Shown in pieces: positions 29,693-51,518 of a stretch of 64,000 bases of DNA (position 1 is the stretch's first letter; every line of letters begins with the position of its first letter). The stretch lies in the NCBI RefSeq assembly GCF_900104615.1, contig NZ_LT629939.1:1883071-1947070 (forward strand), given 5' to 3'. The notes under the pieces were generated by a model. That model ran no database searches. It was not told the DNA's origin and was given only the letters and a program-made list of their open reading frames with translations. This DNA is from Merdimmobilis hominis. GTDB lineage: Bacteria; Bacillota; Clostridia; Oscillospirales; Ruminococcaceae. Both the position numbers and the translations under genes were made by a program.

Positions 29693-30175
29693 CTAGATAG
29701 CGCCTGTCGTCATCAAAATAACCTGTGCGAAGATCACCGAACCAAAGAAAATGGCAAAGAAGGAGACACAGGCGGTCACAACAATGCCCACGCCTTGTTT
29801 TACAAATTCATCCAAATCCTTGCCGATAGAAATACCTGCGTAGGCGAGAATGGGGGTGCACAGAGAGAGCAGATTCATTTTATTCAGTTCTGCCACATAG
29901 TATTCCGCAATGGGGGAGAAACCGGGAATACTGATCAAAATAGAAAGCAGGCTGATATAAATAATAGTGGGAAGTTTTACTTTGATGGTTTTGCGGGCCA
30001 GGTCATCCACCAAGCATCCGGCCACAACCACCAGGAACATCATGATCAATCCAGGAGCGGCTTCCAAAGGAGTGATGGGACGGCCTGTTTTGGACGAGGA
30101 AATATAGTTGCCGATGGAGGCGAATACCGCACTGAGGAACAGGACTTTGATTCGAGTAATCCAAGTTTCAGACAT
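29693..30175 (-). CDS. Small membrane subunit, pair 1
   Basis: A 160-residue hydrophobic protein with four to five predicted helices and a conserved loop LCTPILAYAGISIGKDLDEF. It is 14 nt downstream of the DUF3100-like gene 30190-30999 and ends before a terminator. A close paralog (31538-32032) sits in the same order behind the second DUF3100-like gene, so the two proteins are likely obligate partners. Two-subunit carriers such as MadL/MadM have a similar size split, but I see no decisive homology. Function unknown; probably transport of the substrate handled by the neighbouring amidohydrolases (inference). Confidence 0.65.
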   Translation of the reverse strand: MSETWITRIKVLFLSAVFASIGNYISSSKTGRPITPLEAAPGLIMMFLVVVAGCLVDDLARKTIKVKLPTIIYISLLSILISIPGFSPIAEYYVAELNKMNLLSLCTPILAYAGISIGKDLDEFVKQGVGIVVTACVSFFAIFFGSVIFAQVILMTTGAI

Positions 30176-30189
30176 AACACAATCCTCCT

Positions 30190-30999
30190 TTATTCTGCTT
30201 TGTTGTTGGCCGAAGCTTTTGCAGGTTTAGGCTCCCGTTTGCAGATCCGATACATAAAGTTAGCCAAAGGCAGGGCCAGGAACAAGGTGACATACATGCC
30301 GGTGACACTGCCAATTACCTGTCCTCCTGCGGTGTACGCCTGAATCTGATCAGCATATTGAGGATATGCTTCTACAATAGCGCCCATACAAGCGGCCATC
30401 ATAGAAGAGGAACCAACTGCTGCACCGATAGCCAAAGAATAAGGATGGAAGAAGCCTAAGCTGCAGAAGAGAGAGGCCATCAGGCCATTGAAGATAGTGC
30501 CCAACAAGGTGCCGGTGATATAACCACCCATAACGCCCTGGCCTTCAGGAGAATCCAGGCCGTACATGTTGCCGATGATGGCGATGGCGTCCTCACGGGA
30601 GGTGGAGAAACCGCACCCCACGGCTTGGCGCCCCATTTTAAAAATTAAAACGCCGACGGGAACTGCCAACAAGGGGACAGCGAGCTTTTTGGTGACCGCA
30701 GTGACCAACAGAGCGGGTCCGGCGGAAAATACCGTCTCCAGATTAGGACCAACAGTAGAAGACATTTTGGCTGTCAAATACATGACCGAAATGGTGATGT
30801 AGGGAACGGCGGTGGTCATCATCTCCATCGTGATCAGTTTCATTTTCGCCAGAATGATACCGATGATCAGAGCATACAACATGGGAAGGAGAGTAAAGCC
30901 AACCGGTCCGAATTTGAATGGCTTGGAGCCGATCAGCTCACTGACCAAGACCATTCCAAAGCAGAAGGCATGAACTTTCCAGTCTTTCAAATACTTCAT
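30190..30999 (-). CDS. DUF3100-like membrane protein, pair 1
   Basis: A 269-residue integral membrane protein with ~8 hydrophobic segments. Characteristic stretches are GPVGFTLLPMLYALIIGI, GRQAVGCGFSTSRED, YGLDSPEGQGVMGGYITGT and GSSSMMAACMGAI, which I associate with the DUF3100 family. I chose the ATG at 30999, before KYLKDWKVHAFCF, because it matches the paralog's start and has AAGGGG upstream. First gene of a two-gene operon with the 160-residue partner. A role as permease is inferred from topology and context. Confidence 0.65.
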   Translation of the reverse strand: MKYLKDWKVHAFCFGMVLVSELIGSKPFKFGPVGFTLLPMLYALIIGIILAKMKLITMEMMTTAVPYITISVMYLTAKMSSTVGPNLETVFSAGPALLVTAVTKKLAVPLLAVPVGVLIFKMGRQAVGCGFSTSREDAIAIIGNMYGLDSPEGQGVMGGYITGTLLGTIFNGLMASLFCSLGFFHPYSLAIGAAVGSSSMMAACMGAIVEAYPQYADQIQAYTAGGQVIGSVTGMYVTLFLALPLANFMYRICKREPKPAKASANNKAE

Positions 31000-31150
31000 A
31001 ATGCAACCCCTTTTCTCACACAGTATTTCTCCGGGCAAACGGTGCCCAGATAGAAACAATTGGTACGATTAGACGGATACGCTTGGCTGGTTCATCGTGG
31101 GTAGGTTGGGCGCCTGTCTTTGGGTTTTCCAGTAGCTACTCTGTATCTTT

Positions 31151-31179
31151 ATAGTATCATAAGCACTATATATTTTCAA
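31151..31179 (-). promoter_or_regulatory. Promoter of transporter pair 1
   Basis: On the minus strand TTGAAA (31179-31174), 17 nt, TACTAT (31156-31151). The rest of the 31000-31486 gap shows no gene. Confidence 0.65.
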
Positions 31180-31486
31180 TGAAATATTTATGATTTGTTA
31201 ATATTTTTTATGAAATAAAACAAAGGATTCTTAATATTCTTTCGTAGGCGGACAATTCGTACAAAAATGTGGCAAAGTTACAGGCAGCCTTACTATATCG
31301 AAGGACAGAATGATACAATTTTTATCATATTTCCTGTGATAGAGTGAGAAAAAGCGGGTTGGGCAAGATGACAGGGAGAAAGGCTGGAAAAATAGCATGT
31401 GCCCTGGCGAGAGGAGGAGCTTCACAGCCTGTGGGGGAAATACAGACCAACCAGAAGGATGGGGATCTTAGATGGAACAGGGGTAT

Positions 31487-31520
31487 AAAAAAAGCGGCTG
31501 CAATTGCAGCCGCTTTTTTT
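31487..31520. terminator. Symmetric terminator of transporter pair 2
   Basis: A perfect palindrome with A7 and T7 tails, AGCGGCTGCAATTGCAGCCGCT in its centre read in two arms. Effective in both directions. Confidence 0.9.
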
Positions 31521-31537
31521 GGAAAAAGAATATTCGG

Positions 31538-32032
31538 TTAGATAACGCCGGTCATCATCAGAACAACCTGTGCGATCAGTGCGGAACCAACATAGGTACC
31601 GATGAAAGCAGCAATAGCAGTGCACATGATACCCAAGCCCTGTTTCTTGAACTCATCCAGGTCTTTACCGATGGAGATACCGGCATAAGCCAGAATGGGG
31701 GTACACAGAGACATCAGGTTCATTTTGTTCAGCTCAGCGCAGAAATACTCAGCGATAGGGGAGAAACCGGGGATGCTGAGCAGCATGGAGATAGCGGAGA
31801 TGTACAGAATGCTGGGCAGGTTGATCTTAAATTTACGCAGGGTGTCATCCAGGATGCAGCCTACAACAACGCAGAACAGCATCATAGCCAGGCCGGGAAC
31901 CGCCTCGAGGGGGGTAACAGGAGCGCCGGTTTTGGAGGAAGAAATATAGTTTGCAATTGCAGCGAAGACACCGCTGAACAGCAGTACCTTACCCCTGGTG
32001 ATCCAGGTTTCCATCATGCTTGTTTTTTCCAT
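31538..32032 (-). CDS. Small membrane subunit, pair 2
   Basis: A 164-residue paralog of the pair-1 small protein, with the same TWITRGKVLLFSGVFAAIANY opening and the LCTPILAYAGISIGKDLDEF loop. Hydrophobic segments are again four to five. It follows the large subunit by 17 nt. Differences are concentrated in the first 25 residues and the C-terminal helix, which may tune partner or substrate choice. Function not known. Confidence 0.65.
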   Translation of the reverse strand: MEKTSMMETWITRGKVLLFSGVFAAIANYISSSKTGAPVTPLEAVPGLAMMLFCVVVGCILDDTLRKFKINLPSILYISAISMLLSIPGFSPIAEYFCAELNKMNLMSLCTPILAYAGISIGKDLDEFKKQGLGIMCTAIAAFIGTYVGSALIAQVVLMMTGVI

Positions 32033-32049
32033 AGTGTATAATCCTCCTC

Positions 32050-32841
32050 TTATTTCGCAGCCTTGGCAGGTTTTTTCTCGTGTTTCAGAACTCTGTACAG
32101 CCAGTTGGTGACAGGGATAGCCACGAACAGGGACATGTACATGCCATCGACGCTGGTCAGCACCTGGCTGGTGGCGGCATAAGCCTCAATCTGGCCGGCC
32201 ATTTCGGGGTGAGCGGCAACAACGGGAGCCAAAGCAGCGGACATCATGGAAGCGGAACCGGTACCAGCAGCCATACCCAGCGCATAGGGGTGGAACAGGC
32301 CAGTCTTGTCCAGCATGCTAGCCATCAGACCGTTGAAGATGGTGCCCAGCAGGGTACCGGTGATGTAAGCGCCCATAACGCCCTGGCCCTCGGGGGAGTC
32401 CAGACCATACAGGTTGCCGACGATGGCGATGGAGCCCTCACGGGAGGTGGAGAAGGAAGCACCAACAGCAGCACGCCCCATTTTGAAGACGCAGACAGCG
32501 ATAGGCAGCGCCAGGAAGATGGTGCCCAGGTTGCCGAACTCCTGCAGGATCAGAGCGGGACCAGCGTTCAGAACAGCTTCCAGGTTGGGGCCGATGGAAG
32601 AGGCCATCTTGGCGGTCAGGTACATTACCGAAATGGTAATGTAGGGAGAAGCGGTGGTCATCATCTCTCTGTCAATCAGTTTGAACTGAGCCAGGATGAT
32701 ACCGATAATCAGAGCGTACAGCATGGGGAACAGGGTGAAGCCAACCGGTCCGAAGTTAAAAGAATGCTTACCGATGAGCTCACTGACGATCACCATGACA
32801 AAGCACAGCGCGTGGACTTTCCAATCCTTGAGATACTTCAT
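32050..32841 (-). CDS. DUF3100-like membrane protein, pair 2
   Basis: A 263-residue paralog of 30190-30999. The motifs YGLDSPEGQGVMGAYITGT and GRAAVGASFSTSREG are kept, while the central helix (ILQEFGNLGTIFLALPIAV) differs. Start ATG at 32841 with a GGGGTT-type site upstream. It heads the operon with its 164-residue partner and is transcribed away from the amidohydrolase cluster, with only an 837-bp gap between the start codons. Confidence 0.65.
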   Translation of the reverse strand: MKYLKDWKVHALCFVMVIVSELIGKHSFNFGPVGFTLFPMLYALIIGIILAQFKLIDREMMTTASPYITISVMYLTAKMASSIGPNLEAVLNAGPALILQEFGNLGTIFLALPIAVCVFKMGRAAVGASFSTSREGSIAIVGNLYGLDSPEGQGVMGAYITGTLLGTIFNGLMASMLDKTGLFHPYALGMAAGTGSASMMSAALAPVVAAHPEMAGQIEAYAATSQVLTSVDGMYMSLFVAIPVTNWLYRVLKHEKKPAKAAK

Positions 32842-32984
32842 GACATAACCCCTTTTTCTTTGTTTTGTTTGAAGGCAGGTCCTGCTCCGCCTTCTCAATA
32901 CTGTGTGTGACCACAAAGAATAGTAGGCCTTCTCAACGATACGAATGAGGAGAAAGCCTAACATTCCTTGGTCTCATGTCTAAG

Positions 32985-33013
32985 ATATTAACACAATGTA
33001 AATACAAATGCAA
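32985..33013 (-). promoter_or_regulatory. Promoter of transporter pair 2
   Basis: On the minus strand TTGCAT (33013-33008), 17 nt, TAATAT (32990-32985). Confidence 0.6.
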
Positions 33014-33454
33014 TCTTTCCGGGGAGTGCGGCAGACGATTTTGATATTCTAAACAGCTTTTTCAAAAAATCCTAACGAATTTGCATAAAAAAAGTGGGGG
33101 AATCCCTGCAAAATAATTGCAACATAAAGACGGTGTATGTGAATATTGATCATGATTGCTAAAGGAATTTGTCTAATTTTCTAAAAAATATAAATTTTTT
33201 TGCATGACGATACTATTTTTGCAGGGAAATTGCCCCTGCCGTGCCATCCATTTCTAACAAATCCCTTGATTCCTGGTTGCTTTTTTTGCCTTGGGAAAGG
33301 TGGATATAGATAGAGCAGCAGCTTGTTATTGATATTTTCGATATTTCTCCCCTGGAGGACAAAACATTCGTTTTTGTCTCTAGCTAAACTCCATAGGAAT
33401 CTTTAAACAAATTGGCTATAATGGTTAAATCATCGGCTGGGCATTCCTTTTTCG

Positions 33455-33483
33455 TTGAAATCGAACCCCCTGTGTGGTATATT
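33455..33483 (+). promoter_or_regulatory. Promoter of the amidohydrolase cluster
   Basis: TTGAAA (33455-33460), 17 nt, TATATT (33478-33483), leaving a ~190-nt leader. A second possible -10, TATAAT at 33417-33422, lacks a good -35. The rest of the AT-rich 33014-33454 stretch contains no gene I can support. Confidence 0.55.
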
Positions 33484-33678: not shown

Positions 33679-34998
33679 ATGCCAGTTTCCCGCCAGGAAT
33701 TGAAGGAGAGGGCTTTTGCAGCCATTGACCAAAACCGGGATAAGATCATCGCCTTGGGTGATTCCATCTTCGCTGAGCCGGAATTGGGTTTTAAAGAGGT
33801 CAAGACCGCGGCCAAAATCAAAAAGGTATTTGAAGAACTGGGCTATGAATATCAGGACGGCGCCGCCATCACCGGCGTCATTGCACCCCGCAAGGGCAAA
33901 GAATCCAAGATGAAGGTCGCCGTCATGGGCGAGCTGGACGCCGTAGTCGCCCCCGGGCACCGCTGTGCCGACCCCAAGACCGGCGCTGCCCACTCCTGCG
34001 GCCACAACTGCATGATCGCCGCCCTGTCCGGCGTGGCTTATGCCCTAAAGGACACCGGGATTATGGAAGAGCTCTCCGGCGACATTGTGCTGATGGCTGT
34101 CCCCGCGGAGGAATACGTGGAAATCGGCTACCGCAACGAGCTGAAAAAAGAGGGAAAAATCTACTTCCTGGGCGGCAAACCAGAGTTCATCCGCCTGGGT
34201 TACCTGGATGATGTTGATGTCCTGTTGATGCAGCACTCCGCCAACTACGAAGGGGAGCAGAAACGGGCTTATGCCGGAGGGGAGACCATCGGCTTTTTGG
34301 GCAAATTGGTCCATTACATCGGCAAGGAAGCCCATGCCGGCGGTGCGCCCCACCTGGGGATCAACGCCCTCAACGCGGCCCAGATCGGCCTGATGGCGGT
34401 CAACGCCCAGCGGGAGACCTTCCAGGACAAAGACCACATCCGGGTCCATCCCATCATGACAAAAGGCGGCGACCTGGTCAACGTGGTCCCCGCTGACGTC
34501 TGCATCGAAACCTATGTCCGCGGCGGCTCAGTGGAAGCTATCTTTGACGCCTCCGCCAAGGTGGACCGGGCCTTTAAGGCTGGCGCTGACGCCGTAGGCG
34601 CCAAGTGTGAGATCACCAATCTCCCCGGCTATCTGCCGACGGATTTTTCTAAAGACCTCTACGATCTCAACTATGAGAATCTGAAGCTGATCATCGGCGA
34701 GGAGCAGGCAGGGTACCAAGCCCCTTTGAGCACCGCTTCCGGCGATTTGGGGGATGTCTCCCACATTATGCCCTGTATCCAAGCCAGCATCGGCGGCGCA
34801 GTGGGGGTGTTCCACAGCGAGAATTTTGAGATCGGTGACAAGGAGCTGGCCTACATTGTACCGGCCAAACTTCTGGTTGCCACCGCCATCGACCTGCTGG
34901 CCGATGGGGCAAAAACCGGCCTGGCCGTCAAGGCAAACTTCCGCCCCAAGATGACAAAACAGGAGTACCTCACCGTCTGGGGCGGCATGAAAGAGTAA
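33679..34998 (+). CDS. M20-family metallo-amidohydrolase, paralog 1
   Basis: A 439-residue enzyme of the M20 peptidase/amidohydrolase family (AbgB/PM20D2-like side). Probable di-metal ligands are C107 and H109 (AHSCGHN), E144/E145 (PAEE), H186 (MQH) and H379 (FHSENFEI). The lid domain (~205-315) holds GKEAHAGGAPHLGINAL. Such enzymes cleave N-acyl or aminobenzoyl-glutamate-type amide bonds; the substrate here is unknown. ATG at 33679 follows GGAGG. First of eight paralogs and first gene of the transcription unit. Its C-terminal third (residues 320-365) is the most divergent of the set. Confidence 0.85.
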   Translation: MPVSRQELKERAFAAIDQNRDKIIALGDSIFAEPELGFKEVKTAAKIKKVFEELGYEYQDGAAITGVIAPRKGKESKMKVAVMGELDAVVAPGHRCADPKTGAAHSCGHNCMIAALSGVAYALKDTGIMEELSGDIVLMAVPAEEYVEIGYRNELKKEGKIYFLGGKPEFIRLGYLDDVDVLLMQHSANYEGEQKRAYAGGETIGFLGKLVHYIGKEAHAGGAPHLGINALNAAQIGLMAVNAQRETFQDKDHIRVHPIMTKGGDLVNVVPADVCIETYVRGGSVEAIFDASAKVDRAFKAGADAVGAKCEITNLPGYLPTDFSKDLYDLNYENLKLIIGEEQAGYQAPLSTASGDLGDVSHIMPCIQASIGGAVGVFHSENFEIGDKELAYIVPAKLLVATAIDLLADGAKTGLAVKANFRPKMTKQEYLTVWGGMKE

Positions 34999-35043
34999 GC
35001 TTATACCAATTTCTATACATTATTATAATAGGAGGAGTTTAAA

Positions 35044-36357
35044 ATGGCAGTATCCAAACAAGAACTCAAACAAAGAGCAATCGCAGCAATTGACAAAAAC
35101 CGGGACAAGATCATCGCCCTGGGCGATTCCATCTTCAGCGAGCCTGAGCTGGGCTACAAAGAGGTGAAAACTTCCGCTAAGCTGAAAGCAGTATTTGACG
35201 AGCTGGGCTACAAATATCAGGATGGCGTGGCCATCACCGGTATTGTCGCCCCTCTGAAGGGCAAAGAGTCTAAGATCCGTGTCGCTGTCATGGGCGAGAT
35301 GGATGCCGTTGTGGCTCCCGGTCACCGCTGCGCCAACAAAGAAACCGGCGCTGCCCACTCCTGCGGCCACAACTGCATGTGCGCCGGCCTGGCTGGCGTT
35401 GCTTACGCGCTGAAAGATACCGGCATTATGGAAGAGCTCTCCGGCGATGTGGTGCTGATGGCTGTCCCCGCTGAGGAGTATGTGGAGATCGAGTATCGCA
35501 ACGAGCTGCGCAAAGCTGGAAAGATCTGGTTCCTGGGCGGCAAACAGGAGTTCATCCGCTTGGGCGTGTTCGATGACATTGACATTATGATTATGCAGCA
35601 TACCGCCAACACCGTTGATGGCATCCTGGCTTCTCCCGGCGGAGCTTCCAACGGCTTTGTGGGCAAGCTGGTCCGCTACATCGGCAAAGAGGCCCATGCG
35701 GGCGGCGCGCCCCACCTGGGCATCAACGCCCTCAACGCAGCCCAGATCGGCCTGATGGCTGTCAACGCCAACCGTGAGACCTTCCAGGATAAAGACCACA
35801 TCCGGGTCCATCCCATCATCACCAAGGGCGGCGACCTGGTCAACGTAGTCCCCGCTGACGTCCGCATCGAGACCTATGTCCGCGGCGCCAACGTCCCCGC
35901 AATTCTGGATGCTTCCGCCAAAGTCAACCGCGCCTTCAAGGCCGGTGCAGACGCTGTCGGCGCCAAGTGCGAGATCACCGAGCTGCCCGGCTACATGCCT
36001 GTTGTCACCGATAAGAACCTGGTAGAGATTATGACCGGCAACCTGGTTGAGCTGTTTGGTGCAGAGCATGTCAACACCAATCCCGCAGCAGGCGGCGGCT
36101 CCTCCGACGTGGGCGATGTTGCCAGCATCCTTCCCACTCTGCAGGCTGACATCGGCGGTGCAGAGGGCGACTTCCACAGCGAGCGCTTTGAAATCGCCGA
36201 TAAAGAGACCGCTTACCTGGGCGCTGCCAAGGCTCTGGTCATGACCGTGATCGACCTGCTGGCTGACGGTGCAGTCCTGGGCGAAAAGGTCAAGGCCGAG
36301 TTCAAACCTCAGATGACCAAGGAGCAGTACCTGAAAGAGTGGGGCCACATCGAATAA
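35044..36357 (+). CDS. M20-family metallo-amidohydrolase, paralog 2
   Basis: 437 residues with AHSCGHNCM at the metal site, as in paralogs 1 and 3. GEMDAVV replaces the GELDAVV of most others. The distal segment (TNPAAGGGSSDVGDV) differs from paralog 3. It starts 45 nt after paralog 1 with GGAGG 8 nt upstream. The lid-coding block 35662-35893 differs from that of paralog 3 at only 6 of 232 positions, all silent. Predicted cytoplasmic. Confidence 0.85.
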   Translation: MAVSKQELKQRAIAAIDKNRDKIIALGDSIFSEPELGYKEVKTSAKLKAVFDELGYKYQDGVAITGIVAPLKGKESKIRVAVMGEMDAVVAPGHRCANKETGAAHSCGHNCMCAGLAGVAYALKDTGIMEELSGDVVLMAVPAEEYVEIEYRNELRKAGKIWFLGGKQEFIRLGVFDDIDIMIMQHTANTVDGILASPGGASNGFVGKLVRYIGKEAHAGGAPHLGINALNAAQIGLMAVNANRETFQDKDHIRVHPIITKGGDLVNVVPADVRIETYVRGANVPAILDASAKVNRAFKAGADAVGAKCEITELPGYMPVVTDKNLVEIMTGNLVELFGAEHVNTNPAAGGGSSDVGDVASILPTLQADIGGAEGDFHSERFEIADKETAYLGAAKALVMTVIDLLADGAVLGEKVKAEFKPQMTKEQYLKEWGHIE

Positions 36358-36387
36358 GCAATCCCCCCGCATCTCCGTAACCAAGGG

Positions 36388-36414
36388 TGAGGCCGCCCCC
36401 TATGGGGCGGCTCA
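36388..36414 (+). other. Intercistronic hairpin between paralogs 2 and 3
   Basis: TGAGGCCGCCCC and GGGGCGGCTCA surround CTAT; there is no T tract. It is more likely an RNA stability or processing element than a terminator. Confidence 0.5.
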
Positions 36415-36459
36415 TCCATGAGAGTTATACAGATAAAATAGGAAAGGGAGATTCAAGTT

Positions 36460-37782
36460 ATGGCGGTATCCAAACAGGAACTCAAGAGAAGAGCATGCGA
36501 AGCCATTGACAAAAATCGGGATAAGATCGTCGCCCTGGGCGATTCCATCTTCAGCGAGCCCGAGCTGGGCTACAAGGAGTTCAAAACCTCTGAAAAGATC
36601 AAAAAGGCCTTTGATGAGATGGGCTACAAATACCAGGATGGCGTGGCCATCACCGGTGTAGTCGCCCCCCTGAAGGGCAAAGAATCCAAAATCCGGGTCG
36701 CTGTCATGGGCGAAATGGATGCGGTAGTTGCCCCCGGCCACCGCTGCGCCAACAAAGAAACCGGCGCTGCCCACTCCTGCGGCCATAACTGCATGTGTGC
36801 CGGCCTGGTTGGCGTCGGCTATGCCTTCGCCGGCACCGGCATTATGGAAGAACTCTCCGGCGACGTTGTGCTGATGGCTGTCCCCGCTGAGGAGTACGTG
36901 GAGATCGAATACCGCAACGAGCTGAAAAAGGCTGGAAAGATCTGGTTCCTGGGCGGCAAACAGGAGTTTGTCAAACTGGGCGTGTTCGATGACATCGACA
37001 TTATGATTATGCAGCACACCTCCACCTTTGATGGCACCGGTGTCAAGGGCGTCTGCGGCGGTACCGGCAACGGCTTTATGGGCAAACTGGTCCGCTACAT
37101 CGGCAAAGAGGCCCATGCGGGCGGCGCACCCCACCTGGGCATCAACGCCCTCAACGCAGCCCAGATCGGCCTGATGGCTGTCAACGCCAACCGTGAGACC
37201 TTCCAGGATAAAGACCACATCCGCGTCCATCCCATCATCACCAAGGGCGGCGACCTGGTCAACGTGGTTCCCGCCGACGTCCGCATCGAGACCTATGTCC
37301 GCGGCGCCAACGTGGATGCTATCCTGGATGCTTCCGCCAAAGTTTCCCGCGCTTTCAAAGCTGGTGCAGACGCCGTGGGCGCCAAGTGCGAAATCACCGA
37401 TCTGCCCGGTTACCTGCCCACCATCCAGAATTATGACCTGTTCGACATCATGTATGAGAACATGAAGGAAGTCTTTGGCGACGAGAAATTCGTCCGGTAC
37501 GAGAACACCGCAGGCGGCGGCTCCACCGATGCCGGCGATATTTCCTACCTGATGCCCATGATCCACTCCTACTTCATCGGCGCTGAAGGCATCGGCCACA
37601 GCGAAAACTACGAGATCGCCGACAAGGACATCGCTTACATCGCCGCAGCAAAATGCCTGGCTATGACCGCGATCGACCTGCTGGCCGATGGCGCAGAACT
37701 GGGCCTGAAGGTAAAAGCCAACTTCAAACCCACTTTCACCAAGGAAGAGTACCTGGAAAAATGGGGCCTGATGACCAAATAA
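36460..37782 (+). CDS. M20-family metallo-amidohydrolase, paralog 3
   Basis: 440 residues, closest to paralog 2 over the N-terminal half and lid, including AHSCGHNCM and GEMDAVV. The pocket-side loop after MQH reads TSTFDGTGVKGVCGG and the distal part TAGGGSTDAGDISY, both different from paralog 2, so substrate preference probably differs. Start after GGAAAGGGAG. The gap to paralog 4 contains a perfect hairpin without T tract. Confidence 0.85.
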   Translation: MAVSKQELKRRACEAIDKNRDKIVALGDSIFSEPELGYKEFKTSEKIKKAFDEMGYKYQDGVAITGVVAPLKGKESKIRVAVMGEMDAVVAPGHRCANKETGAAHSCGHNCMCAGLVGVGYAFAGTGIMEELSGDVVLMAVPAEEYVEIEYRNELKKAGKIWFLGGKQEFVKLGVFDDIDIMIMQHTSTFDGTGVKGVCGGTGNGFMGKLVRYIGKEAHAGGAPHLGINALNAAQIGLMAVNANRETFQDKDHIRVHPIITKGGDLVNVVPADVRIETYVRGANVDAILDASAKVSRAFKAGADAVGAKCEITDLPGYLPTIQNYDLFDIMYENMKEVFGDEKFVRYENTAGGGSTDAGDISYLMPMIHSYFIGAEGIGHSENYEIADKDIAYIAAAKCLAMTAIDLLADGAELGLKVKANFKPTFTKEEYLEKWGLMTK

Positions 37783-37795
37783 CCTGGAGCGTCAG

Positions 37796-37825
37796 AATGC
37801 CGGTAGAAGTATTTCTACCGGCATT
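37796..37825 (+). other. Intercistronic perfect hairpin
   Basis: AATGCCGGTAGAA, GTAT, TTCTACCGGCATT. A 13-bp uninterrupted stem with no T tract lies between paralogs 3 and 4. A similar GC-rich hairpin lies at 39219-39260 after paralog 4. Confidence 0.6.
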
Positions 37826-37878
37826 TGCTTCATAACAACAAAGCCGGCTTTAAGGCCGGAGCAAGGGAGGTACTACTT

Positions 37879-39204
37879 ATGGCAGCATCCAGAGAAGAAT
37901 TAAAGAAAAGAGCCTGTGAAGCCATCGACAAAAACCGGGATAAGATCATCGCCCTGGGCGAATCCATTATGATGGAGCCGGAACTGGGCTACAAGGAGTT
38001 TAAAACCGCCGATAAGGTGAAAAAAGTCTTTGATGAGCTGGGCTTCCAGTACCAGGACGGTGTGGCCATCACCGGCGTCATCGCCCCCCTGAAGGGCAAA
38101 GAGTCCAAGATCCGGGTTGCCGTCATGGGCGAGCTGGACGCTGTGGTCGTTCCCGGCCACGCCCTGTGCAACAAGGAGACCGGCGCGGCCCACTGCTGCG
38201 GCCACAACGCCCAGATCGCCTCAATGGTGGGTGTGGGCTACGCTCTGGCCGGCACCGGCATCCTGGAAGAGCTCTCCGGCGACGTTGTGCTGATGGCTGT
38301 CCCCTCGGAGGAATTTGTGGAGATCGAGTACCGCAACGAGCTGCGTAAAGCGGGCAAGATCCACTTCCTGGGCGGCAAACAGGAGTTTATCTACCTGGGT
38401 GTGTTCGATGACATCGACATGATGATTATGCAGCACACCTCCACCACCGAAAACGGCGATGAGGCGGGAAAAATCAAAGGCAACTGCGGCGGTTCCACCG
38501 GCCTTGGCTTTATGGGCAAACTGGTTCGTTACATCGGCAAAGAGGCCCATGCCGGCGGCGCACCCCACCTGGGCATCAACGCCCTCAACGCAGCCCAGAT
38601 CGGCCTGGCGGCGGTCAATGCCAACCGGGAAACCTTCCAGGATAAGGACACCATCCGGGTCCATCCCATCATCACCAAAGGCGGCGACCTGGTCAACGTG
38701 GTCCCCGCTGATGTCCGCATCGAGACCTATGTCCGCGGCGGCAACATGGAAGCCATCTTGGACGCCTCCGCCAAGGTGGACCGGGCCTTTAAAGCCGGCG
38801 CTGACGCGGTGGGCGCCAAGTGTGAGATCACCAACCTGCCCGGTTACCTGCTCCCTTATGAAAGCGAGGAGCTTAAAGACGTGGTTTGGGAGAATATGCA
38901 CGCCCTGATGGGGGATTCCGCAGTGCGCAACGGCTCGGGCGGCTCCACCGATGCCCAGGACCTGTCTCAGATCATCCCTGTGGTCCACATGCGGATCGGC
39001 GGCGCCAAAGGCATTGGCCACGGCGCCAACTACGAAATTGTGGACAAGGAGATGGCTTACATCACCGCGGCTAAGATTCTGGCCACCACTGCTATCGACC
39101 TGCTAGCAGAGGGCGCTGTCCTCGGCCAGAAGGTAAAAGACAACTTTAAAGCCCCCATGACCAAAGAACAGTACCTGCGGGATTGGGGCGGGTTGGACCT
39201 GTAG
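37879..39204 (+). CDS. M20-family metallo-amidohydrolase, paralog 4
   Basis: 441 residues. Distinct features are GESIMMEPELGYK near the N-terminus, VVPGHALCNKETGAAHCCGHNAQIAS at the metal site read in two halves (CCGHN instead of SCGHN), PSEEFVE instead of PAEEYVE, and a longer loop after MQH (TSTTENGDEAGKIKGN). The metal ligands are all kept. ATG at 37879 follows GGGAGG. The extra Cys beside the metal site is unique in the set. Confidence 0.85.
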   Translation: MAASREELKKRACEAIDKNRDKIIALGESIMMEPELGYKEFKTADKVKKVFDELGFQYQDGVAITGVIAPLKGKESKIRVAVMGELDAVVVPGHALCNKETGAAHCCGHNAQIASMVGVGYALAGTGILEELSGDVVLMAVPSEEFVEIEYRNELRKAGKIHFLGGKQEFIYLGVFDDIDMMIMQHTSTTENGDEAGKIKGNCGGSTGLGFMGKLVRYIGKEAHAGGAPHLGINALNAAQIGLAAVNANRETFQDKDTIRVHPIITKGGDLVNVVPADVRIETYVRGGNMEAILDASAKVDRAFKAGADAVGAKCEITNLPGYLLPYESEELKDVVWENMHALMGDSAVRNGSGGSTDAQDLSQIIPVVHMRIGGAKGIGHGANYEIVDKEMAYITAAKILATTAIDLLAEGAVLGQKVKDNFKAPMTKEQYLRDWGGLDL

Positions 39205-39356
39205 CCAACCGGAACACAGCGGGGAGGGTTTTCTTTGTTTTCGCTGGAGAACCCTCCCGCCAGTGAGAACCGCAATAGGTCATGGCAGCTCCAATCCAAA
39301 ATAGATATAGACTGCATTCATGCAACAGCCCCCAAGGCGAGAAAGGAAAATACCCC

Positions 39357-40178
39357 ATGAAAATCATCGACGCCCATCTTCATCTTTTCCCCTCTGAACC
39401 CAAGACCGACGCTATGGCACAGGGAGTGGGCCACCAAAATTCAGTTGCTCATCTCCGGCAGGCATTTGGGGAGTTGGATATCGTCCACGGTGTGGTGATG
39501 GGCAACCGCAGTCTCGAAGTGGGGTACCACAACTATCCCGCCGACCTGTTCCACTATTGCGTGGGGCTGGACAGCGTTTTGATGGATCAGGGGGATCGGG
39601 TGATCCCCGATTTGGCCGCCCAAGTGGAGGAGCACTTAAAGCGTGAGGAGTGCTGCGGGGTGAAGCTTTACCCCGGGTACAACAAAATCTGGCTCTCTGA
39701 CCCGGTGTACCAGCCGGTCTATGAACTGGCTGCCCACTATGATAAGCCGGTGGCCGTCCACATGGGTTTGACCGCCCACCCCAGAGCCCATCTAAAATAC
39801 TGCCACCCCTTGGCCTTGGACGAGGTGGCCGCCGACCACCCCGAAACCCAGTTCGTCATGTGCCATTTCGGCAACCCGTTTTTGGAAGCGGCGGCAGCGG
39901 TGGTGGAGAAAAATGCCAATGTGGCCGCCGATCTCTCCGGCCTCTTGGAGGGAAGGGTGGACCTGCCCCGCTACTTCCGGGAGCAATCCGGGTATGTGGG
40001 GTTGCTGCGCACTTGGCTCACCGCCATCTGCCAGTGGGATGATATCCTATATGGCACCGATTGGCCCATTGTCAACCTGGGGGAGTACATCGCCTTTATC
40101 AAGGGCATTGTGCCGGAGGAGCACTGGGAGCAGGTGTTTTTCTGCAATGCCAACCGGATTTACCGGCTGAATCTGTAA
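39357..40178 (+). CDS. TIM-barrel amidohydrolase (Amidohydro_2 type)
   Basis: A 273-residue metal-dependent hydrolase unrelated to the M20 genes around it. It starts MKIIDAHLHLFP, the HxH metal site, and continues through GVKLYPGYN, AVHMGLTAHP, FVMCHFGNP and ends with the catalytic Asp in YGTDWPIV. This matches amidohydrolase family 2 (decarboxylase/lactonase-type barrels). It lies between paralogs 4 and 5 in the same direction, so it probably processes a product or variant of the same substrate class (inference). Start ATG with GAAAGG upstream. Confidence 0.85.
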   Translation: MKIIDAHLHLFPSEPKTDAMAQGVGHQNSVAHLRQAFGELDIVHGVVMGNRSLEVGYHNYPADLFHYCVGLDSVLMDQGDRVIPDLAAQVEEHLKREECCGVKLYPGYNKIWLSDPVYQPVYELAAHYDKPVAVHMGLTAHPRAHLKYCHPLALDEVAADHPETQFVMCHFGNPFLEAAAAVVEKNANVAADLSGLLEGRVDLPRYFREQSGYVGLLRTWLTAICQWDDILYGTDWPIVNLGEYIAFIKGIVPEEHWEQVFFCNANRIYRLNL

Positions 40179-40213
40179 TATTCTATTGATTTTATACGGA
40201 AAGGAAGTATTTC

Positions 40214-41533
40214 ATGAGCATGACCAAAGAGCAACTGAAGCAGAAAGCCTGTGAGGCCATCGACCAGAACCGGGAGAAGATCGTAGCCCTGGGACGTTCC
40301 ATCTTCAGTGAGCCGGAGCTGGGCTACAAGGAGTTCAAAACCGCCGACAAGGTGAAGAAGGTCTTTGACGAGCTGGGCTATGCGTATCAGGACGGGGTGG
40401 CCATCACCGGCATTGTCGCCCCCCGCAAGGGCCGCAAATCCAATATCCGGGTGGCGGTCATGGGTGAGCTGGATGCGGTAGTTGCCCCCGGCCACCGCTG
40501 TGCGGACCCCAAAACCGGCGCTGCCCACTCCTGCGGCCACAACGCCCAGATCGCCTCGATGGTGGGGGTGGCTTACGCCCTCAAGGACACCGGCATCATG
40601 GAAGAGTTGGATGGCGACATCGTGCTGATGGCCGTCCCCTCGGAGGAATATGTGGAGATCGAGTACCGCAACGAGCTGAAGAAGGCTGGAAAGATCTGGT
40701 TCCTGGGCGGCAAACAGGAGTTCATCAAACTGGGCGTCATGGATGACATCGACATGATGGTCATGCAGCACCTCACCACCCCGGAATATGCCTATGAGGG
40801 CAAAAAGGTCCTTTGCGGCTGCGGATCCAACGGCTTTGTGGGCAAGCTGATCCGCTACATCGGCAAAGAGGCCCATGCGGGCGGCGCGCCCCATCTGGGC
40901 ATCAACGCCCTCAACGCGGCCAACATCGGCTTGGCGGCGCTGGCTGCCCAGCGGGAGACCTTCCAGGACAAAGACCACATCCGGGTACACCCCATCATGA
41001 ACAAGGGCGGCGACCTGGTCAACGTGGTCCCTGCCGACGTACGGCTGGAGACCTATGTCCGCGGTTCCAATATGGAAGCCATTCTGGATGCCAGCTTTAA
41101 GGTGTCCCGTGCCTTCAAAGCGGGCGGTGATGCGGTGGGCGCCCAGTGCGAGATCACCGACCTTCCCGGCTACCTGCCCACCATCGAGGCCATGGAACTC
41201 AACGAGCTGATGGCCGGCAACCTTTCCGGCCTCATCGGTGAGGAGAATGTGGCGGTCACCGGCCCGGCCAATTCTGGGTCTACTGACCAGGGCGACCTCT
41301 CCTACATCATGCCCACCGTTCAATCCTTCTTTGCGGCGGCCTCTGGCATCGGACACAGCGAGAGCTATGAGATCGCCGACGAAGAGCTGGCATATATTGT
41401 CCCCGCTAAGGCGATGGTGATGACCTGTATCGACCTGCTGTGGGATGGCGCGGCCAAGGGCATTGAGGTGAAAAACAACTACAAGCCGGAGATGACCAAA
41501 GAGGAATACCTGAAAAAGTGGGGCAATATGTAG
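40214..41533 (+). CDS. M20-family metallo-amidohydrolase, paralog 5
   Basis: 439 residues with SCGHNAQIASMVGVAYALKD, as in paralog 4 but with Ser before CGHN. The loop after MQH is LTTPEYAYEGKKVLCGCG, hydrophobic and Cys-rich. In the lid LAALAAQRETF replaces the usual LMAVNANRETF, and VHPIMNKGGD carries Asn for Thr. It begins 35 nt after the TIM-barrel amidohydrolase, with GGAAAGGAAG upstream, and is followed by GC-rich hairpins before paralog 6. Confidence 0.85.
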   Translation: MSMTKEQLKQKACEAIDQNREKIVALGRSIFSEPELGYKEFKTADKVKKVFDELGYAYQDGVAITGIVAPRKGRKSNIRVAVMGELDAVVAPGHRCADPKTGAAHSCGHNAQIASMVGVAYALKDTGIMEELDGDIVLMAVPSEEYVEIEYRNELKKAGKIWFLGGKQEFIKLGVMDDIDMMVMQHLTTPEYAYEGKKVLCGCGSNGFVGKLIRYIGKEAHAGGAPHLGINALNAANIGLAALAAQRETFQDKDHIRVHPIMNKGGDLVNVVPADVRLETYVRGSNMEAILDASFKVSRAFKAGGDAVGAQCEITDLPGYLPTIEAMELNELMAGNLSGLIGEENVAVTGPANSGSTDQGDLSYIMPTVQSFFAAASGIGHSESYEIADEELAYIVPAKAMVMTCIDLLWDGAAKGIEVKNNYKPEMTKEEYLKKWGNM

Positions 41534-41635
41534 CCCTCAACCAACCGGAAGAAGGGGAGGGGCCGCACCTGCGGCCCGCCCGTCTTGATACACGCGGGGC
41601 ACCCCCGCTTGAGACAAAGAGAGGAAGTGCTGCAA

Positions 41636-42937
41636 ATGAGCGTATCCAGAGAAGAACTGAAAAGAAGAGCCTGCGAAGCAGTAGACAAAAACCGGGACAA
41701 GATCATCGCCTTCGGCGAATCGGTCTTTGCAGAGCCGGAACTGGGCTTCAAAGAGTTCAAGACCTCCGCCAAAGTGAAAAAAGCCTTTGAGGAGATGGGC
41801 GTCGCCTACACCGATGGCCATGCCATCACCGGCGTCATCGCCCCTTTTAAAGGCAAGGAATCCAAGCTGAAAGTGGCCCTGATGGGCGAGCTGGACGCAG
41901 TTGTCTGCCCCGGCCACCGCTGCGCAGACCCGGTCACCGGCGCTGCCCACTCCTGCGGCCACCATGTGCAGATTGCCTCCATCATCGGCTGCGGCCTGGC
42001 GCTGAAAGACAGCGGCATCATGGATGAACTGTCCGGCGACATCGTGCTGATGGGCGTCCCCGCCGAGGAGGGCGTGGAACTGGAATACCGCGCCGGCCTG
42101 ATCAAGGAGGGCAAGATCCACTTCCTGGGCGGCAAACAGGAGTTCATCTATGAGGGCGTGTTTGACGACATCGATATGATGATCATGCAGCACACCATGG
42201 TGGACGAGAATGTCAAGGCCACTGCCGGCGGCGCTGTCGGCAAGGGCTTCATCGCCAAATACATCCGCTACATCGGCAAAGAGGCCCATGCGGGCGGCGC
42301 GCCTCACCTGGGCATCAACGCCCTCAACGCGGCCCAGATCGGCCTGATGGCCATCAACGCGCAGCGGGAAACTTTCCAGGATAAGGATTCCGTCCGGGTC
42401 CATCCCATCATCACCAAGGGCGGCGACCTGGTCAACGTAGTCCCCGCCGATGTCCGCATCGAGACCTTCTGCCGCGGCAACAATGAGCCCGCCATCCTGG
42501 ACGCCTCCAAGAAGGTGGATCGGGCCCTGAAAGCCGGCGCCGACGCCGTGGGCGCTCAAGTGGAGATCATCGATCTGCCCGGCTACATGCTTCCCTATGA
42601 GCATCTGCCCCTGAAAGAGCTGGTCACCGAGAACCTGGAAGCCCTGGTAGGCAAAGAGAATGTGGGCCCCGGCGTTGGTTACACCACCGACGCCAACGAC
42701 GTCGCCCATATTGTTCCCACCGTCCACGCCTGCATCGCCGGTGCGGCCGGTGTGGGCCACAGCTCGGAATATGAGATCACCGACAAAGAGAACGCTTACA
42801 TCGTCGCCACCAAGATGATGCTGATGAGCTGCATCGACCTGCTGGCAGATGGGGCTGAGCGCGGTCTCAAAATCAAGGAGAGCTGGAAGGCCCCTTACAC
42901 CAAGGAGCAATACCTCAAGGAGTGGGGAAACCTGTAA
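41636..42937 (+). CDS. M20-family metallo-amidohydrolase, paralog 6 (CGHH variant)
   Basis: 433 residues. The metal motif reads AHSCGHHVQIAS, with His replacing the Asn that follows the ligand His in paralogs 1-5 and 8. PAEEGVELEYRAGL, TFCRGNNEPAIL and YTTDANDVAH are further private features, making this one of the most divergent copies. YTDGHAITGVIAP groups it with paralog 7. ATG at 41636 with GAGGAAG upstream. A true terminator follows. Confidence 0.85.
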   Translation: MSVSREELKRRACEAVDKNRDKIIAFGESVFAEPELGFKEFKTSAKVKKAFEEMGVAYTDGHAITGVIAPFKGKESKLKVALMGELDAVVCPGHRCADPVTGAAHSCGHHVQIASIIGCGLALKDSGIMDELSGDIVLMGVPAEEGVELEYRAGLIKEGKIHFLGGKQEFIYEGVFDDIDMMIMQHTMVDENVKATAGGAVGKGFIAKYIRYIGKEAHAGGAPHLGINALNAAQIGLMAINAQRETFQDKDSVRVHPIITKGGDLVNVVPADVRIETFCRGNNEPAILDASKKVDRALKAGADAVGAQVEIIDLPGYMLPYEHLPLKELVTENLEALVGKENVGPGVGYTTDANDVAHIVPTVHACIAGAAGVGHSSEYEITDKENAYIVATKMMLMSCIDLLADGAERGLKIKESWKAPYTKEQYLKEWGNL

Positions 42938-42960
42938 GAGCAGCGCCAATACGTAGGAAA

Positions 42961-42987
42961 AGGGACCGCTTTCGGCGGTCCCTTTTT
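42961..42987 (+). terminator. Terminator after paralog 6
   Basis: AGGGACCGC, TTTCG, GCGGTCCCT with TTTTT. It ends the unit covering paralogs 1-6. Confidence 0.85.
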
Positions 42988-43132
42988 GTTGGAAGGAGCC
43001 TGTGGCAGCCAGGCGGAGCCACCTTATAAAAAGGGGGAGAACTCCCGGTTGGTTGGAATTCATAATATTAATAAAAATACTGGTGAAATGGGCCATTCCC
43101 TGGGCAGAACCGGAAATTTTGGAAAAAACCAG

Positions 43133-43161
43133 TTGCCGAACTTCCAAAATTCGTTTATACT
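43133..43161 (+). promoter_or_regulatory. Promoter of paralog 7
   Basis: TTGCCG (43133-43138), 17 nt, TATACT (43156-43161). The 42988-43132 stretch has no gene. Confidence 0.7.
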
Positions 43162-43272
43162 TAAAGAGCATAAGGGGCTGTTTTGTCCGTCCTGCACATA
43201 CAGTTCCCTCAATTTCCCTCTTCTAGAAAGAGGGGTGCTGCACTTTTAAGATGGAAAGGAAGATTGTTTATT

Positions 43273-44580
43273 ATGGCGACTAGAGAAGAACTCAAACAGA
43301 GAGCTTGCGAAGCCATCGACAAAAACCGTGACAAGATCATCGCTTTGGGCGATGCGATTTTCTCCGAGCCTGAGCTGGGCTACAAGGAGTTTAAAACCGC
43401 TGAAAAGGTGAAAAAAGCCTTTGACGAGATGGGTTATACATACACCGACGGCCACGCCATCACCGGCATCATCGCTCCTTTGAAGGGCGGCGAGTCCAAA
43501 GTGAAGGTCGCCATCATGGGCGAGCTGGACGCCGTTGTCGCCCCCAACCACCGCTGCGCCAACAAAGAGACCGGCGCTGCCCACTCCTGCGGCCACCATG
43601 CTCAGATCGCCTCTATGGTCGGCGCTGCCTACGCCTTCAAAGACACCGGCATCCTGGAAGAGCTGGGCGGCGACGTGGTGCTGATGGCTGTCCCCGCAGA
43701 AGAGTATGTGGAGCTGGGCTACCGCAACGAGCTGCGCAAAGCTGGCAAGATCTGGTTCCTGGGCGGCAAGCAGGAGTTTGTCCGTTTGGGCCTGTACGAT
43801 GACATCGACATCTGCGTCATGCAGCACACCGAGCTGGGCAATGTCATCAACTGCGGCCAGAAATACAACGGCTTTGTGGGCAAACTGGTGCAGTACATCG
43901 GCAAAGAGGCCCACGCAGGCGGCGCGCCTCACCTGGGCATCAACGCCCTCAACGCCGCCCAGATCGGTCTGATGGCTGTCAACGCCAACCGGGAGACCTT
44001 CCAGGACAAGGATCAGATCCGCGTCCATCCCATCATCACCAAGGGCGGCGACCTGGTCAACGTGGTCCCCGCCGACGTCCGCATCGAGACCTATGTCCGC
44101 GGCAACAACGTCCCCGCCATCCTGGACGGCAGCTTTAAAGTCACCCGTGCCTTCAAAGCCGGCGGCGACGCAGTGGGCGCCCAGTGCGAAGTCACCGAGC
44201 TGCCTGGTTATATGCCCTTCGTGGTCAACAACGAGCTGGATGACGTGATGTATCAGAACGCCCTGAAGCTGGTTGACACTGACAAGATCAAAGTCGACCT
44301 GGAAGGCCCTGGCACCGGCGGTTCCACCGACGCTGGCGACCTGTCCCACATCATGCCCATCATCCACGCTCATGTGGGCGGTGCGGAAGGCATTTTCCAC
44401 AGCGAGAGCTTTGAGGTCCCGGACAAGGAGCTGGCTTACATCACCGCTGCCAAACTGCTGGCTACTACCACCATCGACCTGCTGGCTGACGGCGCTGCCA
44501 AGGCCCTGGAGATCAAATCCCACTTCAAACCCCTCATGACCAAAGAGGAGTACCTGAAGGATTGGGGCCACATCGAATAA
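43273..44580 (+). CDS. M20-family metallo-amidohydrolase, paralog 7 (CGHH variant)
   Basis: 435 residues with AHSCGHHAQIASMVGAAYAF at the metal site, the same Asn-to-His change as paralog 6. VVAPNHRCANKE carries Asn in place of the Gly found elsewhere. The loop after MQH is short (TELGNVINCGQ). GPGTGGSTDAGDLSH marks the distal region. It has its own promoter and terminator and is thus the only copy clearly set up for separate control. GGAAAGGAAG precedes the ATG. Confidence 0.85.
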   Translation: MATREELKQRACEAIDKNRDKIIALGDAIFSEPELGYKEFKTAEKVKKAFDEMGYTYTDGHAITGIIAPLKGGESKVKVAIMGELDAVVAPNHRCANKETGAAHSCGHHAQIASMVGAAYAFKDTGILEELGGDVVLMAVPAEEYVELGYRNELRKAGKIWFLGGKQEFVRLGLYDDIDICVMQHTELGNVINCGQKYNGFVGKLVQYIGKEAHAGGAPHLGINALNAAQIGLMAVNANRETFQDKDQIRVHPIITKGGDLVNVVPADVRIETYVRGNNVPAILDGSFKVTRAFKAGGDAVGAQCEVTELPGYMPFVVNNELDDVMYQNALKLVDTDKIKVDLEGPGTGGSTDAGDLSHIMPIIHAHVGGAEGIFHSESFEVPDKELAYITAAKLLATTTIDLLADGAAKALEIKSHFKPLMTKEEYLKDWGHIE

Positions 44581-44591
44581 TCTGCCTTGTA

Positions 44592-44622
44592 AGAGGGCGC
44601 CGGTTTCCGGCGCTCTCTTTTT
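44592..44622 (+). terminator. Terminator after paralog 7
   Basis: AGAGGGCGCCGG, TTT, CCGGCGCTCTCT, then TTTT. Confidence 0.85.
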
Positions 44623-44661
44623 GCAATTACTGTAAAAAAAGGTTAGGAGGATTTGGACAAG

Positions 44662-45978
44662 ATGGATAGAACCGAGCTAAAGCAAAAAATCTGCGCTGCC
44701 ATCGACCAGCACCGGGAAGAGATCATCGCCCTGGGGGAGGACATCTTCCGCCACCCGGAAATGGGGTATAAGGAGACCCGCACCGCAACGAAGGTCTGCG
44801 AGGAGTTTGACAAACTGGGCTTCTCCTACCAGAGCGGCTTGGCCCTCACCGGAGTGATGGCCAAACTGAAGGGCGGGGAATCTAAGGTCAACGTGGCGGT
44901 CATGGGGGAACTGGATGCCATTATCGCACCCCAGCAGGAGTTTGCCGACCCCGTGACTGGTGCCGCCCACTCCTGCGGCCACAATGCTCAGATCGCCGCC
45001 ATGGTGGGGGTGGGCTACGGCCTAAAATACAGCGGCGTATTGCAAGAACTCTCCGGCGATGTCACCCTCATCGCCATCCCCGCTGAGGAATACGCCGAGA
45101 TTGAGTACCGCAGCCAGCTGAAAAAAGAGGGCAAGATCACCTTCCTGGGCGGCAAGCAGGAGTTTATCAAACTGGGCCTCTTCGACGATGTGGACATGGT
45201 GGTCATGCACCACCTCACCGTCCCCAGCCTGTTGGAGAACGGCGGTCTCGCTCAGGCGGGCGGCGCTTACAACGGGTTTACCGGCAAGCTGGTCCGCTAC
45301 ATCGGCAAAGAGGCCCATGCCGGCGGCGCGCCCCACCTGGGGATCAACGCCCTTAACGCCGCCCAGATCGGACTGGCGGCGGTCAACGCCAACCGGGAAA
45401 CCTTCCAGGACAAAGACCACATTCGGGTCCATCCCATCATCACCAAGGGCGGCGATTTGGTCAATGTGGTCCCCGCCGATGTCCGCATTGAGACTTATGT
45501 CCGCGGCTCCAGCGTCTCCGCCATTCTGGATGCCTCCGCCAAAGTCAACCGGGCCTTTAAAGCCGGCGCCGACGCGGTGGGGGCCCAGTGCGAGATCACC
45601 GAAATCCCCGGCTATATGCCGGTGGAGCCGGACAAAAACCTCCAGCAGCTGCTGTACGAGAACTACTGCGCCCTTTTAGGGGAGGAGAACGTCCTCTTCG
45701 ACCACGGCATGATGGGCGGTTCCACCGACCTGGGCGACCTCTCCGCTTTGATGCCAGTTATCCAAGGCAGGACCACCGGAGCCGCAGGCATCTCCCACAA
45801 CAGCAACTACTCCATCGCCGACAAGGAGATGTCCTATATTGTATCCAGCAAGGCCCTGGCCATGACGGTGGTGGACCTGCTGTGCGACGGCGCCAGAGAG
45901 GCCCTTCGGGTGAAGGAGGAATTCCGCCCCATTATGACCAAGGAGCAGTACCTTAGAGAGTGGGGCCAGCTGCAATAA
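44662..45978 (+). CDS. M20-family metallo-amidohydrolase, paralog 8
   Basis: 438 residues and the most divergent N-terminal domain (EDIFRHPEMGYKETRTATKV, IIAPQQEFADPVTG), nearer to general M20D enzymes with FRHPE. It keeps SCGHNAQIAA, PAEEYAE and a His-His pair at MHHLTVP where the others have MQH. I chose ATG 44662 (11 nt after TAGGAGG) over TTG 44653, which sits only 2 nt from that site. It lies 30 nt past a terminator, so it may depend on read-through or a promoter I cannot place. May be nearest the ancestral form. Confidence 0.85.
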   Translation: MDRTELKQKICAAIDQHREEIIALGEDIFRHPEMGYKETRTATKVCEEFDKLGFSYQSGLALTGVMAKLKGGESKVNVAVMGELDAIIAPQQEFADPVTGAAHSCGHNAQIAAMVGVGYGLKYSGVLQELSGDVTLIAIPAEEYAEIEYRSQLKKEGKITFLGGKQEFIKLGLFDDVDMVVMHHLTVPSLLENGGLAQAGGAYNGFTGKLVRYIGKEAHAGGAPHLGINALNAAQIGLAAVNANRETFQDKDHIRVHPIITKGGDLVNVVPADVRIETYVRGSSVSAILDASAKVNRAFKAGADAVGAQCEITEIPGYMPVEPDKNLQQLLYENYCALLGEENVLFDHGMMGGSTDLGDLSALMPVIQGRTTGAAGISHNSNYSIADKEMSYIVSSKALAMTVVDLLCDGAREALRVKEEFRPIMTKEQYLREWGQLQ

Positions 45979-51509: not shown

Positions 51510-51518
51510 TTGGAAATA

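Follow-up and report, generated by a model that had tools for sequence, protein, structure and literature searches.

Why would a bacterium keep eight related M20 hydrolase genes in one array, facing two copies of a membrane-protein gene pair? The question is raised by a stretch of the Merdimmobilis hominis genome (2.58 Mb), G000:C3:1883071-1947070, analysed whole as a window of 64,000 nucleotides in which all positions below are numbered. Four genes lie on the minus strand (s1, d1, s2, d2) and face nine on the plus strand (m1-m4, a1, m5-m8). The former make up two pairs, each a DUF3100 gene with a small membrane gene 3' of it. The latter, spanning 33679-45978, are eight M20 genes and one Amidohydro_2 gene. 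An earlier note had described this divergent layout of eight M20 genes, one TIM-barrel gene and two DUF3100/small pairs from sequence alone, with nothing but hydrolases in the array. Open frames, strands and family assignments agree with it, and apart from a1 the array genes enclose no other gene.

The answer that we consider fairly probable is that a split transporter imports amides and that a diversified M20D panel hydrolyses them, with a division of labour by substrate. Each DUF3100/small pair would form one split secondary transporter of the elevator type, with a conserved broken-helix motif in each subunit, and would import small carboxylate-bearing amides, for instance dipeptides or N-acyl amino acids. 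The eight M20D enzymes would cleave these amides in the cytosol. The catalytic machine and the dimerisation domain would be common to all eight while the segments beside the active-site residues differ, and each enzyme (or dimer) would serve another member of the substrate family. The freed amino acids would feed fermentation. What the sequence offers directly is the genes, their recurring linkage, natural fusions of the two membrane subunits, intact active sites and a focus of divergence among the enzymes.

The M20D array and the focus of its divergence

All eight M20 loci scored above the curated TIGR01891 cut-off (153.75 bits) in a genome search, at 161-179 bits. The six run through NCBIfam (m1, m2, m4, m6, m7, m8) passed the same cut-off, and the five run through Pfam (m1-m5) match Peptidase_M20 and M20_dimer. 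As expected of M20 enzymes, the 16 active-site and clamp positions that were checked are identical in 8/8 proteins (16/16); in the family these residues are the metal ligands, the catalytic Glu and the dimer-domain His. A model of m3, with a predicted local distance difference test (pLDDT) score of 95.2, has its nearest structural matches in human PM20D2, S. aureus HmrA and a Corynebacterium N-acyl-glutamine aminoacylase. The best solved relative is PM20D2 (25% identity, template-modelling scores 0.78/0.85), and Tyr318 of the array, invariant in 8/8, aligns with the Tyr that is mutated in the PM20D2 Tyr314Phe entries. Within the dimer domain, an Arg and an Asn that are conserved would presumably grip a free carboxylate, as in M20 structures, and free-carboxylate amides or dipeptides would fit best as substrates. 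The enzymes are presumably cytosolic because their N-termini, judged by eye, carry no signal peptide.

Pairwise identity among the eight is 57-79%, and it is unevenly distributed. Paralog pairs were compared with pairs from other genomes in bins of equal overall identity. At 57-65% (10 vs 160 pairs) the loop 187-204 is 21 vs 41% identical, segment 319-354 30 vs 45% and segment 355-400 49 vs 60%; the dimer domain is 89 vs 79% identical. The corresponding values at 65-72% (13 vs 37 pairs) are 21 vs 55%, 33 vs 55%, 55 vs 71% and 88 vs 82%, and at 72-80% (5 vs 27 pairs) 35 vs 74%, 30 vs 65%, 56 vs 81% and 95 vs 91%. The 13 array-to-other pairs at 65-72% are low in the first two segments too (28 and 38%), so array members have diverged from the common sequence as well as from one another. 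Segments 187-204 and 319-354 come after His186 and Tyr318 in the sequence.

The phylogeny of the paralogs, which the earlier note had called for, was tested domain by domain. In tree tests on 40 of 94 sequences, a single clade of the eight catalytic domains was rejected (approximately unbiased (AU) test, p 4.8e-5), whereas a single clade of dimer domains was compatible with the data (p 0.37). The catalytic domain of m6 clusters with four sequences, which come from three other genomes (support 100/99). Our first idea, a recent local tandem expansion, was rejected for the catalytic domains by denser sampling; a first catalytic tree of 79 sequences, in which the eight fell together into a 10-tip group, was a product of thin sampling. 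The suggestion that the panel is tuned to different members of a substrate family gains from divergence focused on segments that follow active-site residues. The array is not simply the product of a single local expansion.

Within the array the dimer domain is 81-99% identical, with a ratio of nonsynonymous to synonymous differences (pN/pS) of 0.2. Synonymous differences are also fewer there than in the rest of the gene: 0.24 vs 0.37 within the array, lower in 28/28 pairs, which are non-independent. To other genomes the values are 0.56 vs 0.59, and to those rich in G+C at third codon positions (GC3) 0.43 vs 0.49. At residues invariant in the eight, the synonymous signal was reached by 35 of 20000 column shuffles with all residues, and by 775/20000 (4-fold) and 1842/20000 (2-fold) by class alone. 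Part of the effect is general, since the dimer part is slightly lower between other genomes too (GC3-rich others mutually 0.48 vs 0.51); it lies below the rest in 371/568 array-other pairs. The low synonymous divergence of the dimer domain points to gene conversion, with this general part. Tree topologies were tested for proof of conversion, and what they give is weak; the dimer part has just 79 columns. For the catalytic part a grouping of m2/m3/m4/m7/m8 was not rejected (p 0.07); for the dimer part neither m8 nor m1 with their catalytic relatives (p 0.16, 0.30), nor m6 (p 0.46), was rejected.

A speculative extension, to which we give little weight, is that the dimer domains are interchangeable, being homogenised by gene conversion, that mixed heterodimers of up to 36 dimer types may form, and that the two transporters differ in specificity. 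Each active site would then combine the variable pocket of one chain with the dimer-domain histidine of its partner, which has this role in the family.

Two points count against a division of labour among the enzymes. The nearness of the variable segments to the pocket is read from sequence order, and pN/pS is about 1.1 in 186-205, so that the loops may be relaxed rather than selected. The latter would suit a dosage array, in which redundant copies give a high output of one dipeptidase activity and the loops are merely relaxed, as would the tandem one-way genes, their 57-79% identity and the invariant active sites. We nevertheless regard a dosage array as doubtful: the catalytic domains do not form a single clade, the divergence sits where sequences from other genomes are better conserved among themselves, and hairpins stand between most of the genes.

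The genome is rich in such enzymes well beyond the window. TIGR01891 has 47 matches at E <= 0.001 in it, 38 of them above the cut-off and eight of these at the locus. The 30 other genomes taken as relatives have at most five above the cut-off per genome. The abundance is not unique, since twelve genomes of the family (mostly chosen for many first-look candidates) hold 13-24 matches at E <= 0.001, but it is the highest among the genomes examined. In the same bacterial family, genome G052 has eight tandem M20D genes beside an AbgT-family transporter, about 26% identical to the M20s of the locus. Its variation falls in the same two segments: the dimer region is 79% identical on average, loop 187-204 33% and 319-354 32%, values that come without a between-genome control. 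Arrays of the locus subfamily were found nowhere else across 297 genomes of the family and 398 of the phylum; longer ones may be missed because at most 4-5 candidates were scored per genome, and the genus is represented by one genome. Four subfamily copies lie on four contigs in G326, and G368 has a tandem pair. Elsewhere in the genome of the window an M20D triplet lies near a membrane-like protein with no Pfam match. At 876000-892000 of its contig C3 (L221) three tandem M20D genes lie near a DUF5058 membrane gene, possibly a further unnamed transporter that has a small panel of hydrolases. Two M20D pairs on the same contig (554159/557186 and 70794/73877), each about 3 kb apart with identical scores and a repeated neighbour frame, suggest recent segment duplications or, alternatively, assembly doubling.

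The DUF3100 pair and its linkage to M20 genes

The two large subunits match PF11299 (DUF3100) at 241 (d1) and 290 bits (d2), against a gathering cut-off of 27, and are the only DUF3100 matches in the genome. No Pfam family matches s1 or s2 at E 0.001, and s1 has no NCBIfam family either. Three partly overlapping samples, with some contigs in common, were searched: genomes of the family, of the phylum, and named genomes, the last scanned for the best 80 of 126 stretches. A small gene accompanies DUF3100 at 11/11 hits in the family sample, 31/31 hits (29 loci) in the phylum sample and 80/82 hits (80 loci) in the named genomes, where both misses (L169, L206) are at contig ends; in a few loci two DUF3100 hits have one small gene in common. 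Moreover, 3/121 DUF3100 loci (L061, L078, L154) encode both subunits in one open frame. Constant pairing and natural fusion are what a split transporter should display.

Row mixes were tested for an alignment of the fusions with the separate subunits. The one used, A5, holds the 3 fusions, 46 small-subunit rows and 20/46 large-subunit rows; A3 was dropped, its small-subunit rows having fallen on the large subunit. The model of the L154 fusion has a mean pLDDT of 90.8. In a VIA structural comparison, the 50 rows shown have Z 13.6 to 11.3, and every one is an antiporter or symporter fold: NhaP, NapA, SLC9, SOS1, NHA2, CitS, SbtA and bile-acid symporters. PaNhaP comes top (Z 13.6, root-mean-square deviation 4.4 over 282 aligned), with CitS at 13.4 and SbtA at 12.7. 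The match ranges extend across both subunits, and the pair is for this reason probably one split transporter. The family-conserved motifs GxGSxSMM and CTPILAYAG lie at inter-helix breaks, one per subunit. An elevator-type fold is likely rather than proven, since helical models reach such Z values without kinship.

DUF3100 is uncommon, occurring in 11/297 family genomes and 29/398 phylum genomes (the genome of the window counted). The earlier note had staked its proposal on the membrane pairs and M20 genes occurring together elsewhere, and they do. An M20 of the same subfamily lies within 2.5 kb of DUF3100 at 24/29 phylum loci, on the same strand in 24/26 hits, and at 47/80 named-genome loci. 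Another M20 type adjoins DUF3100 at no further phylum locus, one family locus and eight named-genome loci. At the genome level, this M20 (E <= 1e-140) is present in 21/28 genomes with DUF3100 vs 21/369 without (Fisher p 1e-17, uncorrected for kinship); this test omits the genome of the window and assumes, going by the handles, that both searches drew identical genomes. Among the named genomes that carry both are Clostridium, Acidaminococcus, Phascolarctobacterium, Pyramidobacter and Oscillospiraceae.

Twenty-five named-genome loci have neither M20 type: 9 are near a contig edge, 10 (L210-L219) are mostly from Bacillaceae and kin, by title, and 6 are others. Neighbours at L073 and L081 resemble TRZ/ATZ-type amidohydrolases, below NCBIfam cut-offs; L145 has a beta-Ala-His dipeptidase neighbour and L219 an allantoate-type M20 neighbour, both above cut-off. 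Apart from these and from L210 (below), the scanned neighbours at M20-less loci are housekeeping genes. We take the pair to transport small acids, in many cases amides, rather than one compound.

Further points tell against import and hydrolysis as set out above. Foldseek with the fused model gave no match at E <= 0.001. The VIA Z values near 13 are in a range also reported for unrelated helical models. In the bacterial family of this genome the same-subfamily M20 is near DUF3100 in just 5/11 loci; at 10/18 M20-relative loci picked regardless of DUF3100, no frame with multiple transmembrane helices lies within 4.5 kb. At L210 (Aquisalibacillus) DUF3100 follows semialdehyde-dehydrogenase-like and hydroxyisobutyrate-dehydrogenase-like genes, below cut-offs. 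Finally, d2 keeps 51/51 family-conserved positions and d1 departs at 12/51, including the QE-G motif and a motif glycine; among the other 53 rows only L060 (13) and L052 (12) depart as much, neither with M20 within 2.5 kb. The local copies (d1/d2 66%, s1/s2 69% identical) are sisters in trees (support 0.92 for d, 0.99 for s), and with these departures d1 is probably altered in specificity or coupling, or decaying.

The array and the transporters could be mere neighbours that serve unrelated solutes, with another carboxylate behind the duplication of the pairs. The divergent gene order, the family count and d1 itself speak for this, as do the loci elsewhere where DUF3100 lies beside dehydrogenase-like genes or has no hydrolase that was found. 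We hold it to be unlikely, given the phylum linkage, the shared strand and the genome-level association. The proposed scavenging of amide conjugates keeps its footing in a linkage that recurs, and must allow for DUF3100 beside other chemistry. Still less plausible is a biosynthetic or salvage role in which the cell hydrolyses its own modified or damaged metabolites and the transporter is an exporter: deacetylases and aminoacylases are among M20D relatives and such transporters could export, but 38 TIGR01891 genes in 2.58 Mb, along with the eight diverged copies here, fit nutrition better, and apart from a1 the array encloses no other gene.

Features and surroundings of the array

The features are collected in the table. 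Starts were reset by eye using conserved N-termini for m1 (33679), m4 (37879), a1 (39357), m6 (41636), m7 (43273), d1 (30999) and d2 (32841).

Table. Genes and putative signals of the locus (window positions)
Feature	Position	Strand	Basis
Terminator-like hairpin after s1	29655-29680	-	scan, folding
s1, small membrane subunit copy 1, 160 aa	29693-30175	-	open frames; no Pfam/NCBIfam match
d1, DUF3100 large subunit copy 1	30190-30999	-	PF11299
Perfect 17-bp palindrome with T-runs after s2, terminator-like	31487-31520		folding
s2, small membrane subunit copy 2, 164 aa	31538-32032	-	open frames; no Pfam match
d2, DUF3100 large subunit copy 2	32050-32841	-	PF11299
Promoter-like site ahead of m1/array	33455-33483	+	consensus match only, 10/12; TG before second hexamer
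m1, M20D hydrolase	33679-34998	+	Pfam, NCBIfam, TIGR01891 genome search
m2, M20D hydrolase	35044-36357	+	Pfam, NCBIfam, TIGR01891 genome search
m3, M20D hydrolase, modelled (pLDDT 95.2)	36460-37782	+	Pfam, TIGR01891 genome search
m4, M20D hydrolase	37879-39204	+	Pfam, NCBIfam, TIGR01891 genome search
a1, Amidohydro_2 TIM-barrel protein, role uncertain	39357-40178	+	Pfam
m5, M20D hydrolase	40214-41533	+	Pfam, TIGR01891 genome search
m6, M20D hydrolase	41636-42937	+	NCBIfam, TIGR01891 genome search
Terminator-like hairpin after m6	42958-42991	+	by eye, folding; absent from scan list
10-bp inverted repeat overlapping m7 promoter-like site, operator-like	43115-43151	+	sequence
Promoter-like site ahead of m7, in 335-bp m6/m7 gap	43133-43161	+	consensus match, 9/12
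m7, M20D hydrolase	43273-44580	+	NCBIfam, TIGR01891 genome search
Terminator-like hairpin after m7	44590-44625	+	by eye, folding; absent from scan list
m8, M20D hydrolase; longest catalytic end branch among the eight	44653-45978	+	NCBIfam, TIGR01891, tree

Separate promoters had been claimed for some copies. Promoter-like sites do precede m1 and m7, as consensus matches; the region has 24 such sites vs 9.0 in shuffles, many of them inside genes on the other strand. Hairpins were chosen by eye in 6/8 gaps among the nine genes, and these six, when folded, gave z -3.1 to -7.5; T-runs close those after m6 and m7. A terminator scan, whose list lacks these two, found no excess (17 vs 18.9 in shuffles). 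Possible transcription units would be m1-m2, m3, m4, a1-m5, m6, m7 and m8. Regulatory words common to both sides were limited to short words, nothing convincing.

The Amidohydro_2 match of a1 comes from Pfam, and the protein has no PDB sequence relative at E 0.001. A tblastn search with it (1e-6) gave no match in the sampled DUF3100/M20 loci, and its place in the system is tentative. To the left of the array lie a hybrid histidine kinase/response regulator and a PAS-domain protein (25776-29099, minus strand). Directly downstream, at 46557-48068 on the plus strand, is a protein with two ABC ATPase stretches, followed at 48328-55588 by long open frames on both strands, where 0/8 frames tried match Pfam. 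A ZMP/ZTP riboswitch (49 bits, 19593-19679, minus strand) stands at the start of a large minus-strand frame, 17279-19654.

Relation to known systems

Neither DUF3100 nor PF11299 occurs in the literature searched. One candidate, PMC13081902, concerns a bile salt hydrolase that is metal-dependent and belongs to the amidohydrolase superfamily; it was set aside, 'M20' being absent from its main text.

LrgA/LrgB and MadL/MadM also combine a small and a large membrane subunit and handle small organic acids; the membrane proteins of the locus match no Pfam family but DUF3100. The structural matches to CitS (2HCT), NhaP/NapA and SbtA span both subunits; the transporter of the locus is split over two genes, and d2 has no PDB sequence match at E <= 1. 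PM20D2, a beta-alanyl-lysine/Xaa-Arg dipeptidase, shares the Tyr with the array, but is a single human enzyme vs eight.

A system close in kind is AbgT-AbgA/AbgB, a secondary transporter beside M20D amidohydrolases for aminobenzoyl-glutamate utilisation. Like it, the locus has a transporter beside M20D genes, and the G052 array even has an AbgT-family gene. Unlike it, the locus has DUF3100 with a small subunit, and its paralogs number eight where that system has an A/B pair; the solved aminobenzoyl-glutamate utilisation protein 3io1 is less close to the array than PM20D2 and HmrA. Membership of the AbgT system itself was rejected: the transporters are DUF3100 proteins, and the genome has a single, weak AbgT-profile match (32 bits), which fits DcuC far better. 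Judging from the literature searched, the locus adds a transporter partner that is apparently unreported to a known import-and-hydrolyse kind, a transporter with an M20 panel.

DUF3100 and its unannotated small partner gain from this comparison a testable role, that of a split transporter often tied to amide hydrolysis in anaerobes. Built on a single scaffold but divergent in some segments, the eight enzymes offer a natural set for learning how M20 specificity arises. Within one bacterial family, tandem M20D panels go with differing transporters, which suggests a recurrent lifestyle on amide conjugates; this would matter to N-acyl amino acid and dipeptide metabolism in anaerobic and gut communities.

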